From: Planctomonas sp. JC2975
GTDB lineage: Bacteria; Actinomycetota; Actinomycetes; Actinomycetales; Microbacteriaceae
NCBI RefSeq assembly: GCF_012985205.1
Contig: NZ_JABEKS010000001.1
Span: forward strand, 1,488,001 to 1,552,000
Length of the DNA stretch: 64,000 bases
Direction of reading: 5' to 3'
Shown here one piece after another: positions 45,781 to 52,333 of the stretch. The position numbers and the translations under genes were made by a program. A model generated the notes under the pieces. It was given only the letters and a program-made list of their open reading frames with translations. It did no database searches and was not told the DNA's origin. Position 1 is the first letter of the stretch, and each line of letters begins with the position of its first letter.

Positions 45781-46858
45781 GGCAGAGATGATCGCAGAAG
45801 AGCAAGATCGACCGGGCCGGATCGCTCGGCCGGCAACCGCCCTCGACGCGGAGGGCGCAGCGATCGTCGTGGCGGCCATCGCCTTCGTGATCGGCGCCCT
45901 CATTTTCCTGCCGTTCTTCTGGAGGCAGGAACTCGCGATCGCGGGGCCGTCGTCGCTCTCGCAATACACCGCCATCGTGGCGGGTGTCGTCGCCTTCGCT
46001 GCCTACATCGCTGGCCGGCTCATCCACCGGCGGTCACTGAGTCCGTTCGGCACGGCGGCACGCCCTGTCGGGCAGAAGACGTCCTGGGTCGACATCTTCG
46101 ACACGATCGTGATCGCCATCGCGCACGGGATCATCGCCCTCCTCGGCTGGCTGGTGCTCGGCGCACTCCTGGCTGCCAGCTTCAAGGATGCGACGGTCTA
46201 TTTCCTTTCGGCGACGGCGTTGGCTGGAGTCGCGATCGCCGTCACTGCGTACGCCGTCTTCCTCTCGGCGACCCACATGGGACTCATGCGACTGTCGACG
46301 GTGCTCGCCGGGTTCGCGATCATCGGTCTCCTCACCTCGATGCTCAGCGCACCCGACCCGCACTGGTGGAAACTGCACCTCAGCGCCCTGGGGATGTCGA
46401 ACAGCATCTCGTCGCTGACCTTCAACATCACACTGATCGTGGCCGGGCTGATGATGGCCGCCATCTCCCGCTATGCCACGGATGTGCGCACCATCGACGA
46501 CCCGGCGACGAAGTCTGCGGCCATGCGTCTGCGCGTCGGGCTGATCCTGATCGGCCTGTTGCTGGCGTGCGTCGGGATCTTTCCGCTCGATGTGTCGCGC
46601 ATCCTGCACAACGTCTCAGCTGTGGGCATGCTGATCACCTTCACGCTTGTGGTGTTCTGGGTGCGCAAGGCCCTTCCGACCGCCCCGCGATCGTTCTTCG
46701 TCTTCGGCTACGTCTCGTTCGCCGTGATCGTGGTGATGGCCGTGTTCTACGTCGTCGGATACTACGTGCTCACGGCCACCGAACTGGTGGCCGGAGCAGT
46801 GGTCTTCGGCTGGCTCCTCGTGTACCTGCGCGTCAGCGGCGCGGCTCAGCGCGATTGA
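45773..46858 (+). CDS. Polytopic membrane protein, third gene of transporter operon
   Basis: A 361-residue protein with 9-10 TM helices and no solute-binding motif that I can name; the layout resembles DUF998-like or other multi-span proteins of unknown function. The ATG at 45773 overlaps the MFS stop by 8 bp; ATG 45788 behind AGGGCAG is an alternative start. Tight coupling to the APC and MFS genes suggests a part in the same transport task. Confidence 0.75.
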   Translation: MARAEMIAEEQDRPGRIARPATALDAEGAAIVVAAIAFVIGALIFLPFFWRQELAIAGPSSLSQYTAIVAGVVAFAAYIAGRLIHRRSLSPFGTAARPVGQKTSWVDIFDTIVIAIAHGIIALLGWLVLGALLAASFKDATVYFLSATALAGVAIAVTAYAVFLSATHMGLMRLSTVLAGFAIIGLLTSMLSAPDPHWWKLHLSALGMSNSISSLTFNITLIVAGLMMAAISRYATDVRTIDDPATKSAAMRLRVGLILIGLLLACVGIFPLDVSRILHNVSAVGMLITFTLVVFWVRKALPTAPRSFFVFGYVSFAVIVVMAVFYVVGYYVLTATELVAGAVVFGWLLVYLRVSGAAQRD

Positions 46859-46951
46859 GGACCCCGGTTCGCCGGCCGACGACCGCCGCGCTGTTCGGCG
46901 TTCCGCAGAGTGACGCCTCTCCTCGAGTGCGACGAGACGGCGCCTGGACGA

Positions 46952-48040
46952 TCACACGGACGGCTCGACGGCCAGATCGCTGCCGCCCTCTGCCGTCAGT
47001 CTCCTGCGGACACGCACGAGTTGGGCCTCCTCCGAGAACGCCCCGGCCAGGAGCACCTCGCCCTTGGCGAACGACGACGACTGCTCCAGAAGCTGCTGCG
47101 GGACGAAACCGAACACGTGCGCGAGCTCAGCAAGATCCCGTGGCGAGTTCATGCGCATCAGCCCCAGGTTGTCGCACTGCGAGAGCACGTTCGGATGGAT
47201 CTTGGTCGGCCGCTGCGTGGACAGGAACAGCCACAGTCCGAACTTGCGTCCCTCCGCTGCGATCTGGATCAGCTGCTCCGTCAACTGCTCCTCGACGCTG
47301 TTCCTGGCCTCGGGCGGGCAGAAGTTGTGCGCCTCATCGAGCACGATGAGCACCGGCTTGCGATCCATGCGCCGCTCCCACAGATGCTCGAGCACGGCGA
47401 GCGCGGCCGTCTGAAGTTCGGCCGGGTGCGGGAAGCCGCTCACGTCGAGAATGGTCACGCGCGGTCGTTCGTCGATCGTCTCCAGGACCGAATCGCCCCC
47501 GAATGCCCAGAGCGGCCAGTCGAGGATCTGAAGGTTGTCGATGCGCATGCCGAGCTGACGTCGTGCCTCATCGCCGGAGCTGAACAGGGTGTCGAGGAGT
47601 GTGCCGCGCTGGTAGTGCGACAGCGAGTCGTCCAAGTGCAGGAGAGCGTTGTACTCCTCTCCGTCCCGGATCGGATCGAGCATGGCGACCGCGGCCTGCG
47701 AACGCACACTGAGGTCGACGAACCGAGCGTGAAGCTGCGGCTCCTCGGACGTGCTGGAATGGAAGACCCGCACATCGAAAGCGTCGAATCGCTCGCGCAT
47801 GGCTGCCTCGGTGTCCTCACGCATATCCCGCATGTGCGCGTAGTCCGCATTCGGATCGAACACGACCATCGGCAGAGACGTCTCCAAGAGCAGCTGCTCC
47901 AGCACGACGCCGAGCGCGTAGGTCTTGCCAGACCCACTCTGGCCGCACCAGAACGTGTGCCTGTTGAAGCGGGAGGCATCGATGACCGCCGGGCGATCAG
48001 GGTCGTCGACGGCGGTTCCAACGGTCAGCGGGATCATCAT
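46952..48040 (-). CDS. HerA-like / DUF87 ATP-binding protein
   Basis: A 362-residue ATPase of the HerA-FtsK superfamily. Walker A is G-Q-S-G-S-G-K-T at about residue 35; Walker B V-L-I-V-L-D-E-A-H at about 250; a conserved S-T-Q-R-P-T-K-I motif follows, with R-x-x-x arginine finger candidates after. HerA-like proteins pump or resect DNA with NurA nuclease; this short form lacks the HAS-barrel start and has no NurA nearby. ATG 48040 (or 48037) follows GAGGAG. Confidence 0.85.
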   Translation of the reverse strand: MMIPLTVGTAVDDPDRPAVIDASRFNRHTFWCGQSGSGKTYALGVVLEQLLLETSLPMVVFDPNADYAHMRDMREDTEAAMRERFDAFDVRVFHSSTSEEPQLHARFVDLSVRSQAAVAMLDPIRDGEEYNALLHLDDSLSHYQRGTLLDTLFSSGDEARRQLGMRIDNLQILDWPLWAFGGDSVLETIDERPRVTILDVSGFPHPAELQTAALAVLEHLWERRMDRKPVLIVLDEAHNFCPPEARNSVEEQLTEQLIQIAAEGRKFGLWLFLSTQRPTKIHPNVLSQCDNLGLMRMNSPRDLAELAHVFGFVPQQLLEQSSSFAKGEVLLAGAFSEEAQLVRVRRRLTAEGGSDLAVEPSV

Positions 48041-48230
48041 GCTCCTCGGGAGGTGCGGCCGCGTCCACGCCGGCCCGGTCGTCGAACATAAAAGTGAGGT
48101 GGGGTCAGCAGGGCCCACACTACCTCGGACCCATCGCGCACCGCCGTAGGTGGACGGTGCCGAACAGTCGGAGCCACGAACGGCGCTCGAGCGGACGAGG
48201 TCGACGGCTGGGCTGCGCGCGTGCGGCGCC

Positions 48231-48728
48231 TCATGCGGCGGAGACCAGGTACCCCTGCCATTCGGGCAGGGCGTGCTCGACACCTCGCACCATCCAGGCC
48301 GGATCGTGCGGCATCCGCGGGATGACCGACAGCGCCCATCCCATCTCGATGGCCGTCCTGTCGCCCTTCACGTTGTTGCAGCGCAGGCAGCACGCGACGA
48401 GGTTGTCCCAGGAATCCGCTCCGCCGCGTGATTTCGGCATCACGTGATCGATCGTCGTCGCCGACTTGCCGCAATATGCGCAACGATGCCCGTCGCGACG
48501 CAGCACGCCGCGACGCGAGACCGGAACCGCCCGGCCGTGGGGCAGGTGCACGTAGCGGGTGAGCAGGATGACCGACGGTCTGTCGTAAACCGCATCCACG
48601 GCCCAGACCGGGTGATCGAGATCCACTTCGATGACCGTCGCCTTCGCGCTCATGACGAGTGCGAGGGCTCGCTTGAAGCTCACGACGGCCAGCGGCTCAT
48701 ATCCCGCGTTCAGCACCAGTGTGCGCAT
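48231..48728 (-). CDS. HNH endonuclease domain protein
   Basis: A 165-residue actinobacterial HNH protein. An N-terminal 70-residue beta-rich part (T-L-V-L-N-A-G-Y-E-P-L-A-V-V-S) precedes the HNH core: C-A-Y-C-G, T-I-D-H-V-M-P-K-S-R-G-G, W-D-N-L-V-A-C-C-L-R-C-N-N-V-K-G-D-R. Two C-x2-C pairs hold a structural zinc. Nearly universal in actinobacteria, physiological role unknown. AAAGGA precedes ATG 48728. A His-rich leader peptide and terminator lie upstream on the same strand (48832-48922), possibly controlling it. Confidence 0.9.
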   Translation of the reverse strand: MRTLVLNAGYEPLAVVSFKRALALVMSAKATVIEVDLDHPVWAVDAVYDRPSVILLTRYVHLPHGRAVPVSRRGVLRRDGHRCAYCGKSATTIDHVMPKSRGGADSWDNLVACCLRCNNVKGDRTAIEMGWALSVIPRMPHDPAWMVRGVEHALPEWQGYLVSAA

Positions 48729-48792
48729 CGGTGTCCTTTCGATAGACCGGAATGGCTTTCCGGGTTCTCGTGTTCGTCCGCGTGACGTTCTC

Positions 48793-48815
48793 GGAGATCT
48801 CGTACGGAGATCTCC
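48793..48815. repeat. Perfect inverted repeat between terminator and HNH gene
   Basis: GGAGATCTC (48793-48801) and GAGATCTCC (48807-48815) form 9-bp arms with a 5-nt loop (GTACG). It sits 65 bp upstream of the HNH start and 17 bp past the leader terminator, so it is in the leader RNA on the minus strand. It could be an operator or part of an RNA switch. Confidence 0.6.
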
Positions 48816-48831
48816 GGCATCCTCAGGCAAC

Positions 48832-48860
48832 AAAAAAGGCGCCGTCATGAAGACGACGCC
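48832..48860 (-). terminator. Intrinsic terminator directly after the His-rich leader ORF
   Basis: Minus strand: GGCGTCGTC, loop TTCAT, GACGGCGCC (one mismatch), then six U residues. The 5' arm begins on the last base of the leader ORF's TAG stop, the standard geometry of a transcription attenuator. It lies 104 bp before the HNH gene. Confidence 0.85.
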
Positions 48861-48922
48861 TAGTGATTCCACGCACAGTGGTGGTGGAAGCAGTAGTGGC
48901 TGTGATGCCGCATGGTTCGCAT
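48860..48922 (-). CDS. Histidine-rich leader peptide (20 aa)
   Basis: ATG 48922 has GGAGG eight bases upstream. The 20-residue product starts M-R-T-M-R and continues H-H-S-H-Y-C-F-H-H-H-C-A-W-N-H, with seven histidines and two cysteines, then stops at TAG (48860-48862). The intrinsic terminator begins at that stop. This is the layout of an amino-acid attenuator, with histidine codons at 6, 7, 9, 13, 14, 15 and 20. The next gene is the HNH protein, not a histidine enzyme. A metal-binding micropeptide is the alternative reading. Confidence 0.7.
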   Translation of the reverse strand: MRTMRHHSHYCFHHHCAWNH

Positions 48923-48982
48923 GCGGGGATCCTCCGGGTCGGTGAAGCGAACGAACGATGTCAGGGCATCAGGCTAACGCAG

Positions 48983-49016
48983 GATCGGCGTGTCACGCCT
49001 TTGTGGCACGCCGATC
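48983..49016. terminator. Hairpin terminator of the NlpC/P60 gene
   Basis: Arms GATCGGCGTG (48983-48992) and CACGCCGATC (49007-49016) pair perfectly, extended inward by CAC/GTG past one mismatch, with a 6-nt loop. It is 73 bp past the stop of the NlpC/P60 gene on the minus strand and before the His-rich leader. It lacks a U-run. Confidence 0.6.
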
Positions 49017-49088
49017 GCTGGGCTGCGGCCACCCACTGTTCACGCCGGAGTCACGTGTCGCGGGTGTGCGTTCACTCACGCTCCGGGA

Positions 49089-50033
49089 TCAGATGCCGAA
49101 CCGCACGATGTAGTAGTCGCTCGTCCAGATCGGTCTGATCGAGACGCTGCGGCCCACGTCGGGGGCATCGAGGATGTTGCCGTTGCCCGCGTAGAAGCCG
49201 TCATGAGCGCCACCAAGCATGATGACGACGTCACCGGGCTGCGCATCCTGGATCGAGATTCTCTTTCCGATGGCGCCCTGTTGTGCGGCGGAGTGCGGGA
49301 GCGAGATGCCGAACTGCGAATACACAAACATGACGTAGCCCGAGCAGTCGAATCCTGCCGGCGTATCGCCACCGTAGACGTACGGGGTTCCGATGTACTG
49401 CTGCGCCACGGAGAACACCTGCGCAAGGCTGAAGTTCGGGTACGGCGGGTTCGCGAGATAGTCGGATGCCGATGGGCCGCTGTACGCCGCCGCATACGCC
49501 TGCATCTGTGCTGCCGCAGCCGCGCGCTCCGTCGCAGCCTTCTGATCCGCGAGCTGCTGCTCGCTCGTTGCACTGAACGTGTCACCGGCGGCGGCTGGGC
49601 CATCGATGGCGCCCGAGACCCGCACGGACTGCGAGTGCGCCTTCTTCATGCTGTCGAGTGCGTTGGTGCCGAAGGACGCCTGGTTCGACGTGGCCGGATT
49701 GAACGCGTACGCGGGGATGGCGATGGTGGCGACGATGCCACCCGCGAAGAGCATCACGGCGAGGTTCACGAGCGGCCGCATGCGTCGCTTGCGCTTCGCC
49801 ATGCCCGAGGTCGCCGGAACCGGCGAGGTGGACGGCGAACGCTTCTCGGCACTCGTTCCCGCTGTCGCGCCGCTGCGGCTGTAGCGGCGACCGCCGGCGT
49901 CGGCGGCCCGGCGATCGGATTCCCTCAGGCTCCGCCGCGACATCGTCGTCGTCTCGCCCAGAGAATCGATCGCCTTGCTCGTAGTACTCGGGTCGCGGTC
50001 CTCGGGTGGACCGCTCGTACCTAATGTTGCCAA
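49089..50033 (-). CDS. NlpC/P60 (C40) cell-wall hydrolase
   Basis: A 314-residue exported peptidoglycan endopeptidase. A long Arg/Ser-rich cytoplasmic N-terminus (1-77) precedes a TM/signal segment (about 85-107, ending A-Y-A), a coiled-coil Ala/Gln region (about 140-175) and the C40 domain with catalytic G-F-D-C-S-G-Y, G-A-H-D-G-F-Y and, at the third position, Asp in I-L-D-A-P. TTG 50033 is the best start (GGAGG 9 bp before it); it follows a long structured leader with promoter at 50181-50209. It probably trims septal peptidoglycan. Confidence 0.85.
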   Translation of the reverse strand: MATLGTSGPPEDRDPSTTSKAIDSLGETTTMSRRSLRESDRRAADAGGRRYSRSGATAGTSAEKRSPSTSPVPATSGMAKRKRRMRPLVNLAVMLFAGGIVATIAIPAYAFNPATSNQASFGTNALDSMKKAHSQSVRVSGAIDGPAAAGDTFSATSEQQLADQKAATERAAAAAQMQAYAAAYSGPSASDYLANPPYPNFSLAQVFSVAQQYIGTPYVYGGDTPAGFDCSGYVMFVYSQFGISLPHSAAQQGAIGKRISIQDAQPGDVVIMLGGAHDGFYAGNGNILDAPDVGRSVSIRPIWTSDYYIVRFGI

Positions 50034-50174
50034 GGTGTGAACCTCCGGCGCTCCGCTGGCACTAGGTAGCCACCCCGTCCGAAATCTCTTGCGAGTTCGA
50101 CTTCGCAGGCTCAAGAGACGGGCTGAGGGAGCGTCTTGGGCCGGGTCCGTCGGTCGGGTTCCGGCCTGTGGACT
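50034..50174 (-). ncRNA. Structured 5' leader of the NlpC/P60 mRNA
   Basis: About 140 nt lie between the predicted RNA start (near 50174) and TTG 50033. Helices visible on the minus strand: CAGGC...GCCTG closing GGCCGG...CCGGCC and AGACG...GTCT arms (a three-way junction), then CGAA-CTC-GCAA-GAG-TTCG with a GNRA tetraloop. Actinobacterial NlpC/P60 genes are often under the c-di-AMP (ydaO) riboswitch, but its conserved GGGGUGAAUC and CAGCUAAC strings are absent. A different regulatory RNA is possible. Confidence 0.4.
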
Positions 50175-50180
50175 CGTACG

Positions 50181-50209
50181 AGAATACGGGACCCTCACTC
50201 GTTTGTCAC
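50181..50209 (-). promoter_or_regulatory. Promoter of the NlpC/P60 gene
   Basis: On the minus strand GTGACA (50204-50209) and TATTCT (50181-50186) are 17 bp apart, the ideal sigma-70-type spacing, giving an RNA start near 50174. This places the long leader (50034-50174) in the transcript. Confidence 0.6.
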
Positions 50210-50349
50210 ATCGTTTTCGGGGGGTTTCGCGCCACAGGAAAGCGAGTTCCGGCTGTGGAGGGAGAGTGGTGCGGACGCGTTATGCGCGGCATCCGTGCGG
50301 GTCGACAGGGCGGTCGCGATGGTCATGGCGAGGACCGCCATGGCGACCG

Positions 50350-51042
50350 TCAGGCCGTGACGAAGATGTGGCTGGCGACCTCGTTGGGCAGTTCGAGAGC
50401 GTCCGTGTAACCGTCGATCTGCATGGCGACGTACGACCCGGCACGGGAGAAGGTGCCCGTCGATCCGGGGAAGATGCCCGCCTGCCGCAGTTGCGCGAGA
50501 AGCTCCGGCTCGAACTGAACCGGCTCACCGAGGCGTCGGATGGTGGCCGTGACGGGTGCGTCGGATGCCGCTGTCGCATCGACCACGCTGCGCACGCCGT
50601 CGAGGAACACCCGGTGCAGCCCGATGCCCTCGTCTTCGATCCTCGGGATGGGCGTGCCGTACGGCGTCTCGGTCGGGTGTCCGAGGATGTCGAGGATCTT
50701 GTGCTCCACCTGCTCGCTCATGACGTGCTCCCAGCGGCACGCCTCCTCGTGCACGAACTCCCATTCGAGCCCGATCACATCGGAGAGCAGGCGCTCGGCG
50801 AGGCGGTGCTTGCGCATGACGTGCACGGCGCGACGACGGCCCTCGGGAGTCAGCTCAAGGTGGCGGTCGTCTGAGACGACGACCAGGCCGTCCCGTTCCA
50901 TGCGCGCGACGGTCTGCGACACCGTGGGGCCGGAGTGCCCGAGGCGCTCCGAGATGCGAGCACGAAGCGGCACGATGTTCTCCTCTTCGAGGTCGAGAAT
51001 CGTGCGCAGATACATCTCGGTGGTGTCGACGAGATCGGTCAT
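50350..51042 (-). CDS. Iron-dependent repressor, DtxR/IdeR family
   Basis: A 230-residue metal-activated repressor of iron or manganese genes. HTH: L-R-A-R-I-S-E-R-L-G-H-S-G-P-T-V-S-Q-T-V-A-R-M. Metal ligands are in H-R-L-A-E-R-L-L and E-E-A-C-R-W-E-H-V-M-S (C, E, H). A C-terminal SH3-like FeoA domain (about 150-225) completes the IdeR layout. Clear IdeR type. ATG 51042. Monocistronic; divergent from serC. Confidence 0.92.
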   Translation of the reverse strand: MTDLVDTTEMYLRTILDLEEENIVPLRARISERLGHSGPTVSQTVARMERDGLVVVSDDRHLELTPEGRRRAVHVMRKHRLAERLLSDVIGLEWEFVHEEACRWEHVMSEQVEHKILDILGHPTETPYGTPIPRIEDEGIGLHRVFLDGVRSVVDATAASDAPVTATIRRLGEPVQFEPELLAQLRQAGIFPGSTGTFSRAGSYVAMQIDGYTDALELPNEVASHIFVTA

Positions 51043-51118
51043 CGCTTCCCCTCGTAGTGTTCTGCTCGCCGCCGATGGCGCGGATTCCAGCCTACCGGCG
51101 CGCGCCGACGGACATTGA

Positions 51119-52333
<1,215 letters not shown>

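Follow-up and report, generated by a model that had tools for sequence, protein, structure and literature searches.

In the rph-pyrE attenuator of E. coli a leader open reading frame (ORF) lies at an intrinsic terminator, which is suppressed, with no need of an antiterminator, when a ribosome follows RNA polymerase closely. In E. coli pyrBI, too, the leader ORF overlaps the terminator, a close ribosome suppresses it and no antiterminator is needed: the terminator is located within the leader gene, and tight coupling keeps it from acting (PMC4824070, PMC5021804). The pyrL terminator is prevented by ribosomes (PMC5021804). A stop codon placed a few nucleotides before a terminator cuts termination in E. 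coli from about 90% to less than 10%, removing translation restores it, and the terminator recovers by about 27-30 nt after the stop codon (PMC4824070).

The his/trp-type attenuators also consist of a short leader peptide and then a terminator. Leader ORFs are used for control in actinobacteria as well, for example in the Cys-rich leader attenuators of mycobacteria. Another such attenuator is that of the Corynebacterium ilvBNC operon (PMC10272879 and PMC11857589). The mycobacterial and ilvBNC attenuators respond to the amino acid that their operon produces, unlike the leader described here, which precedes a gene for an HNH protein (hnh).

On the protein side, IshB proteins are recognized by an N-terminal PLMP domain and an HNH domain, and IsrB is without HNH. 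IshB is mentioned in passing in PMC12477157. As in the original prediction, no attenuator is known to have been described for this HNH family: the titles and abstract openings of the open-access papers searched describe no leader, attenuator or hairpin for it, and a search of PMC2965389 gave no mention of HNH.

The leader and the hnh locus

The window, that is, the whole 64,000-nucleotide stretch of DNA that was analysed, carries dtxR, nlpC/P60, the leader, hnh and a gene for a HerA-like ATPase in this order on its minus strand. The elements around the leader are the following.

48983..49016, minus strand: P0 hairpin, GATCGGCGTGCCAC..GTGACACGCCGATC, directly upstream of the leader -10; a folded hairpin, kept in five Humibacter
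48971..48976, minus strand: putative leader promoter -10, TAGCCT, picked by eye; a TTAnnCTGA-like block stands at the equivalent position in most aligned rows
48931..48935, minus strand: leader Shine-Dalgarno (SD) sequence GGAGG, 8 nt 5' of the ATG
48860..48922, minus strand: leader ORF of 20 codons, MRTMRHHSHYCFHHHCAWNH and stop, with seven His and two Cys
48867..48889, minus strand: P2 hairpin, TTCCAC-CACCACTGTGC-GTGGAA, within the leader ORF; contains His codons 13-15
48832..48861, minus strand: intrinsic terminator T, a 10-pair stem (48861-48837), then TTTTTGTTG; U tract to 48832
48747..48763, minus strand: P3 hairpin, CCGGAA-AGCCA-TTCCGG, 5' of the hnh ribosome-binding site
48734..48740, minus strand: hnh SD, GAAAGGA
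48231..48728, minus strand: hnh, encoding a 165-aa protein with a PLMP-like N-terminal domain and HNH
46952..48085, minus strand: HerA-like/DUF87 ATPase gene, downstream of hnh

The original prediction had described a well-initiated, His- and Cys-containing ORF whose stop codon touches the 5' arm of a U-tailed terminator, the next gene being an HNH gene rather than one of a his operon, and all of this holds. The TAG stop overlaps the first nucleotides of T (its end lies at +2 relative to the stem start), and the product of the downstream gene matches the Pfam families HNH_5 and HNH. The leader RNA folds better than 200 of 200 dinucleotide shuffles (z -4.07). Among 642 window ORFs of 12-40 aa, the leader ORF alone has at least four His and a His content of at least 25%, and none of the other seven U-tailed hairpins detected in the 64 kb equals T in stem length or in the number of T's in its tail. 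A consensus promoter scan of the window did not call the leader -10, and predicted no promoter between T and hnh, but it is a weak test here. Searching Rfam with positions 46500-51500 gave no match at E <= 1, including to OMEGA wRNA (HEARO).

P0 is probably the terminator of nlpC/P60; being palindromic and abutting the leader -10, it could alternatively be an operator. P0-like hairpins precede the -10 in several other genera. A perfect inverted repeat, CGGAGATCTC-CGTAC-GAGATCTCCG, lies at 48792-48816 between T and P3, in a stretch that the other four Humibacter lack or have in another form. As for the neighbouring genes (flanks of up to 3 kb in 80 named relatives), dtxR shares the strand of hnh in 73, and so does the C-terminal part of nlpC in 62 (in 6 it is on the opposite strand); none of the 80 loci has a protein similar to the downstream HerA-like ATPase, which gives partial HerA matches to defence-system HMMs.

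Conservation of the leader ahead of hnh

The combination of a leader ORF and an intrinsic terminator 5' of hnh is supported, and its conservation reaches far past the genus. At the equivalent position other genera carry a -10-like block, an ORF with its SD and a U-tailed terminator, and a U-tailed hairpin lies 40-260 nt 5' of hnh in 101 of 110 loci (duplicates counted). The stem sequence of T is itself conserved, (A)GGCG/A-Y-Y-GUC..., and this signature occurs in 129/213 upstream regions versus 10/185 control stretches taken from farther 5'; searching with the reverse complement (94/213) is uninformative as a control because the T hairpin is palindromic. Several other families of the order have the signature as well, but 0/38 regions from outside the order do (L152-L169, L209-L228).

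We built a covariance model, R2, from 30 leaders without any Humibacter row; it detects the leader of the window at E 1.8e-8 and has matches at E <= 0.1 in 93 of 120 family genomes. Every one of the 82 matches with E <= 1.1e-5 (some from genomes that also supplied R2 rows) lies on the same strand as hnh and 25-116 nt (median 80.5) 5' of it. The next match, at E 1.3e-5, is not near hnh, and many matches in the weak tail are partial or on the opposite strand. None of the 17 family genomes that lack hnh has a match at E <= 1.1e-5, so the strong matches pair exclusively with hnh. The HNH family itself is found in most actinobacterial genomes sampled: 103/120 in the family (one strong copy each, unlike IshB/IscB), 99/198 in the order and 154/197 in a class draw.

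For the alignment, 109 family loci were reduced to 90 by removing near-duplicates and then, without 12 non-alignable loci and the five Humibacter, to 73 leaders. In these, T is paired in 729/730 cells (shuffle maximum 683) and P1, a hairpin within the leader ORF, in 429/511 (shuffle maximum 416). Since T had been located as a hairpin, its pairing alone is expected, and the evidence lies in compensatory changes. On the 30 leaders, P1 and T together are 95.8% paired, versus 34-56% in sliding controls, with changes on both sides of nine pairs (38 cells) that 0/500 shuffles reach. A scan of all column pairs found strong covariation for T and P1 only; P2 cannot be column-aligned across genera. The 44 nt 5' of T fold somewhat better than shuffles, a modest effect (mean z -1.09, n 77, with 25 below -1.5; control stretch -0.19). 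Rfam gave no match at the leader or P3 in 17 loci. Two matches to the c-di-AMP riboswitch that exceed the gathering score of Rfam lie upstream, at L136:169-338 (about 1 kb or more away) and L145:4-150.

Stop placement follows the same pattern. With the frame anchored on P1 and the start chosen by the best SD, the first in-frame stop falls at T in 56 of the 73 leaders (19 overlap its first bases, 29 lie inside it and 8 lie 1-6 nt before it) and never earlier than 6 nt 5' of T; of the remaining 17, 8 stop beyond T and 9 enter hnh out of frame. In the two shifted frames the stop is at T in only 7/73 and 6/73 (13/146; p 2e-24) and before it in 39 and 28. Start codons are ATG (62) or GTG (11), and 69/73 leaders have an SD core. 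Family leaders share a recognisable peptide block, S-I-x-T-x-D-A-R..R-H-S-S; its codon-position entropies (13.0, 16.1, 15.4) have no coding pattern, so the case for leader translation rests on the frame and on where the stop is placed. In 12 more distant loci outside the main set, with ORF starts picked by eye, eight ORFs run through T and overlap the start codon of hnh with their stop, as ATGA, GTGA or TGATG (L034, L036, L136, L139, L192, L193, L194, L196), and four (L195, L145, L019 and L170) do not end there. The rare Ile codon ATA stands at codon 11 of the P1-anchored block in 24/69 leaders, possibly as a pause codon.

Comparing the regions upstream of HNH orthologues, the check that the original prediction had called for, thus gave a divided answer. 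The ORF, T and the stop-to-stem placement are kept, but the His codons are kept in Humibacter only; of the losses named there as damaging, that of the His codons is seen outside the genus and that of the ORF is not.

A terminator probably governed by the leader ribosome

We consider it likely that the leader is a translation-coupled attenuator like those of pyrBI and pyrE, in which a close-following ribosome would keep T open and let hnh be transcribed. What we infer from the sequences is as follows. The transcript would begin just 3' of the -10 block and its short ORF would be translated. A ribosome close behind RNA polymerase would cover the 5' arm of T, either because the stop lies at or in the hairpin or because the ORF runs through T; the hairpin would then not form, and hnh would be read. 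Conversely, poor initiation, or a ribosome that lags or has stalled earlier, would let T fold and stop transcription. P1 (in most genera) and P2 would probably time the ribosome relative to the polymerase.

The leader agrees with pyrBI/pyrE in having an SD-equipped ORF that reaches or crosses T and an intrinsic terminator before the target gene. Unlike them, its target is an HNH gene, a covarying hairpin lies within the leader ORF, and the ORF may end on the start codon of the target. The idea in the original prediction that leader and terminator are coupled as an attenuator therefore survives for the coupling ahead of hnh, conserved beyond the genus, but not for histidine specificity: whether hnh is transcribed is most likely decided by where the ribosome stands and not by how much histidine is available. 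If this reading is true, hnh expression hinges on how well ribosomes keep up with RNA polymerase, and the leader offers a testable handle both on hnh and on coupling in high-GC Gram-positives.

The P3 hairpin and the HNH protein

P3 is a separate element in the alignments. A hairpin with an AGCC(A/G) loop lies just 5' of the hnh SD in 98/202 distinct regions, including most family members, versus 6-19 for nine control tetramers. Taking the last AGCCR regardless of any stem, 302/384 flanking cells are paired (shuffle maximum 222). Stems of at least 4 pairs occur in 69/104 family, 10/62 order and 8/36 class regions, and in 3/712 control windows. P3 thus extends outside the order. In 40 further class-level regions (one of which, L229, shares a genome with the earlier-sampled L162), AGCCA is the loop of a hairpin of at least 6 pairs in 16, from six families, and 24 are without it; it accounts for 16 of 27 pentaloop hairpins, and every other pentaloop occurs once. 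Its presence in class-level regions marks P3 as older than the leader element. A further level of control, at the ribosome-binding site of hnh, is probably exerted by P3.

The HNH protein has C83, C86, D94, H95, N109, C114 and C117 invariant in 47 sequences. Its AlphaFold2 model (pLDDT 86.8, pTM 0.60) combines a beta-beta-alpha-beta-beta N-terminal part with an HNH fold, and its sequence/fold matches in the PDB are mainly the HNH domains of Cas9, IscB and McrA. Defence-system HMMs match within the HNH domain alone (PtuB, Cas9, PDC-M01B). Aligned by hhalign with the PLMP region of eight IscB, the N-terminus gives 33 ungapped columns at 33% identity (E 1.7e-4, probability 49%), and Foldseek returns a weak match to IsrB 8dmb_P (E 0.041, TM 0.23). 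A PLMP assignment of the N-terminus is plausible and would make the protein similar to IshB and IscB; unlike IscB it lacks RuvC.

A possible but doubtful alternative to the translation-coupled attenuator is autogenous control, in which the HNH protein or another RNA-binding protein would bind the hairpins P1 and P3 with their related loops ([CA]ACC[AG] and AGCC[AG], respectively); at P1 it would halt the leader ribosome, so that transcription terminates, and at P3 it would obstruct the hnh start. The P3 loop is kept while its stem changes, P3 adjoins the hnh SD and the N-terminal domain resembles PLMP, which in IscB contacts the terminal hairpins of wRNA. This contact is, however, described as mainly sequence-independent (PMC9640706), P1 is absent from Humibacter, and the likeness between the P1 and P3 loops is only partial. 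More speculative still, and improbable in our estimation, is that a free-standing PLMP-HNH protein has P3, at its own ribosome-binding site, as its RNA ligand, the two sharing an origin with the pair of IscB and wRNA and serving autogenous control, to which the order would have added a ribosome-gated terminator with a P1 of related loop. The AGCC(A/G) hairpin offers a well-defined candidate RNA site for a small protein related to the presumed ancestors of IscB and Cas9.

Histidine codons of the Humibacter leader

The comparison within the genus covers five Humibacter genomes (relatives of the window include Humibacter albus and Humibacter sp. RRB41). All five have the leader ORF and T with identical +2 geometry. 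Of the 20 leader residues 12 are invariant, including H6, H7, H9, H13, H14 and H15; codon 20 is His in three species and R or C in the other two. The same P2, formed by TTCCACCACCACTGTGYGTGGAA, is present in 5/5, and these leaders are without P1. Among two-fold codons of invariant amino acids, 7 of 8 in the leader (counted by eye on the alignment) never change, versus 9/27 in hnh (p 0.013). The codon of Cys 16 is TGT in all five leaders; the hnh genes of the same genomes use TGC 24 times and TGT once. The unchanged codons, the TGT and the conserved P2 together point to a constraint at the RNA level: the His codons of P2 look constrained as RNA, with a peptide constraint also possible.

The rest of the family has no such leader. 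A profile of the His-leader peptide gave 13 matches at E <= 1 in 150 family genomes, of which the strong ones are in three genomes, all Humibacter (next E 0.023), and a simple His filter found no leaders in other genera, except two ORFs of a different kind (L013, L083). Aligned by eye, Humibacter MRTMRHHSH matches the F-x-I-R-H-S-S portion of the family peptide block, and the Humibacter leader therefore looks shortened. This suggests a shortened version of the family leader in which P2 incidentally codes for a run of His, and warns that a His-rich leader peptide can arise as a by-product of RNA structure.

Histidine attenuation, the mechanism first envisaged, would have a shortage of His-tRNA stall the ribosome on the His codons of Humibacter, leave T open and raise HNH; we hold it to be quite unlikely. 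Seven of the 20 codons are His, six of these positions are invariant in the genus, and a ribosome stalled at codon 20 would sit on the T stem, as would one at the stop (0-1 nt away). This part of the proposed stall stands, and a long-lived stall at codon 20 could help read-through, but that codon is not His in every species. The part that invoked His 13-15 does not stand: a ribosome there is 16-22 nt 5' of the stem, in the intermediate range by the tR2 measurements (PMC4824070), and would protect less than one at the stop, so that histidine starvation would more likely lower hnh than raise it. In addition, no conserved antiterminator was found. The best upstream partner of the 5' arm of T, in a scan of the columns outside the gapped P2 region, is paired in 79% of cells without comparable covariation, and folding without the 3' arm of T gave scattered partners only. 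Compared with his/trp-type attenuators, none of three hallmarks is present across the family: a conserved codon run (Humibacter 5/5 only), an antiterminator and a downstream gene for synthesis, tRNA charging or uptake of the amino acid that is sensed, hnh being neither biosynthetic nor a his gene. As a general principle we reject histidine attenuation on the absence of a His run outside Humibacter, the geometry, the missing antiterminator and the RNA-level constraint.

The remaining suggestion, that the His string binds a metal in a small peptide acting on its own, with T merely ending its gene, fits the His- and Cys-rich Humibacter ORF with its own SD and terminator but is very improbable, as other genera have peptides that are not rich in His, the conserved block has no coding pattern, the stop falls at T or within it, strong R2 matches are always 5' of hnh and in several lineages the stop of the ORF overlaps the start codon of hnh. 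The Leifsonia leaders L034 and L036 have a repeated Cys-x-His-His pattern (CRHHVEACHRHHVVCRHH), a His/Cys-rich variant that comes from tandem CGCCACCATG-like DNA.
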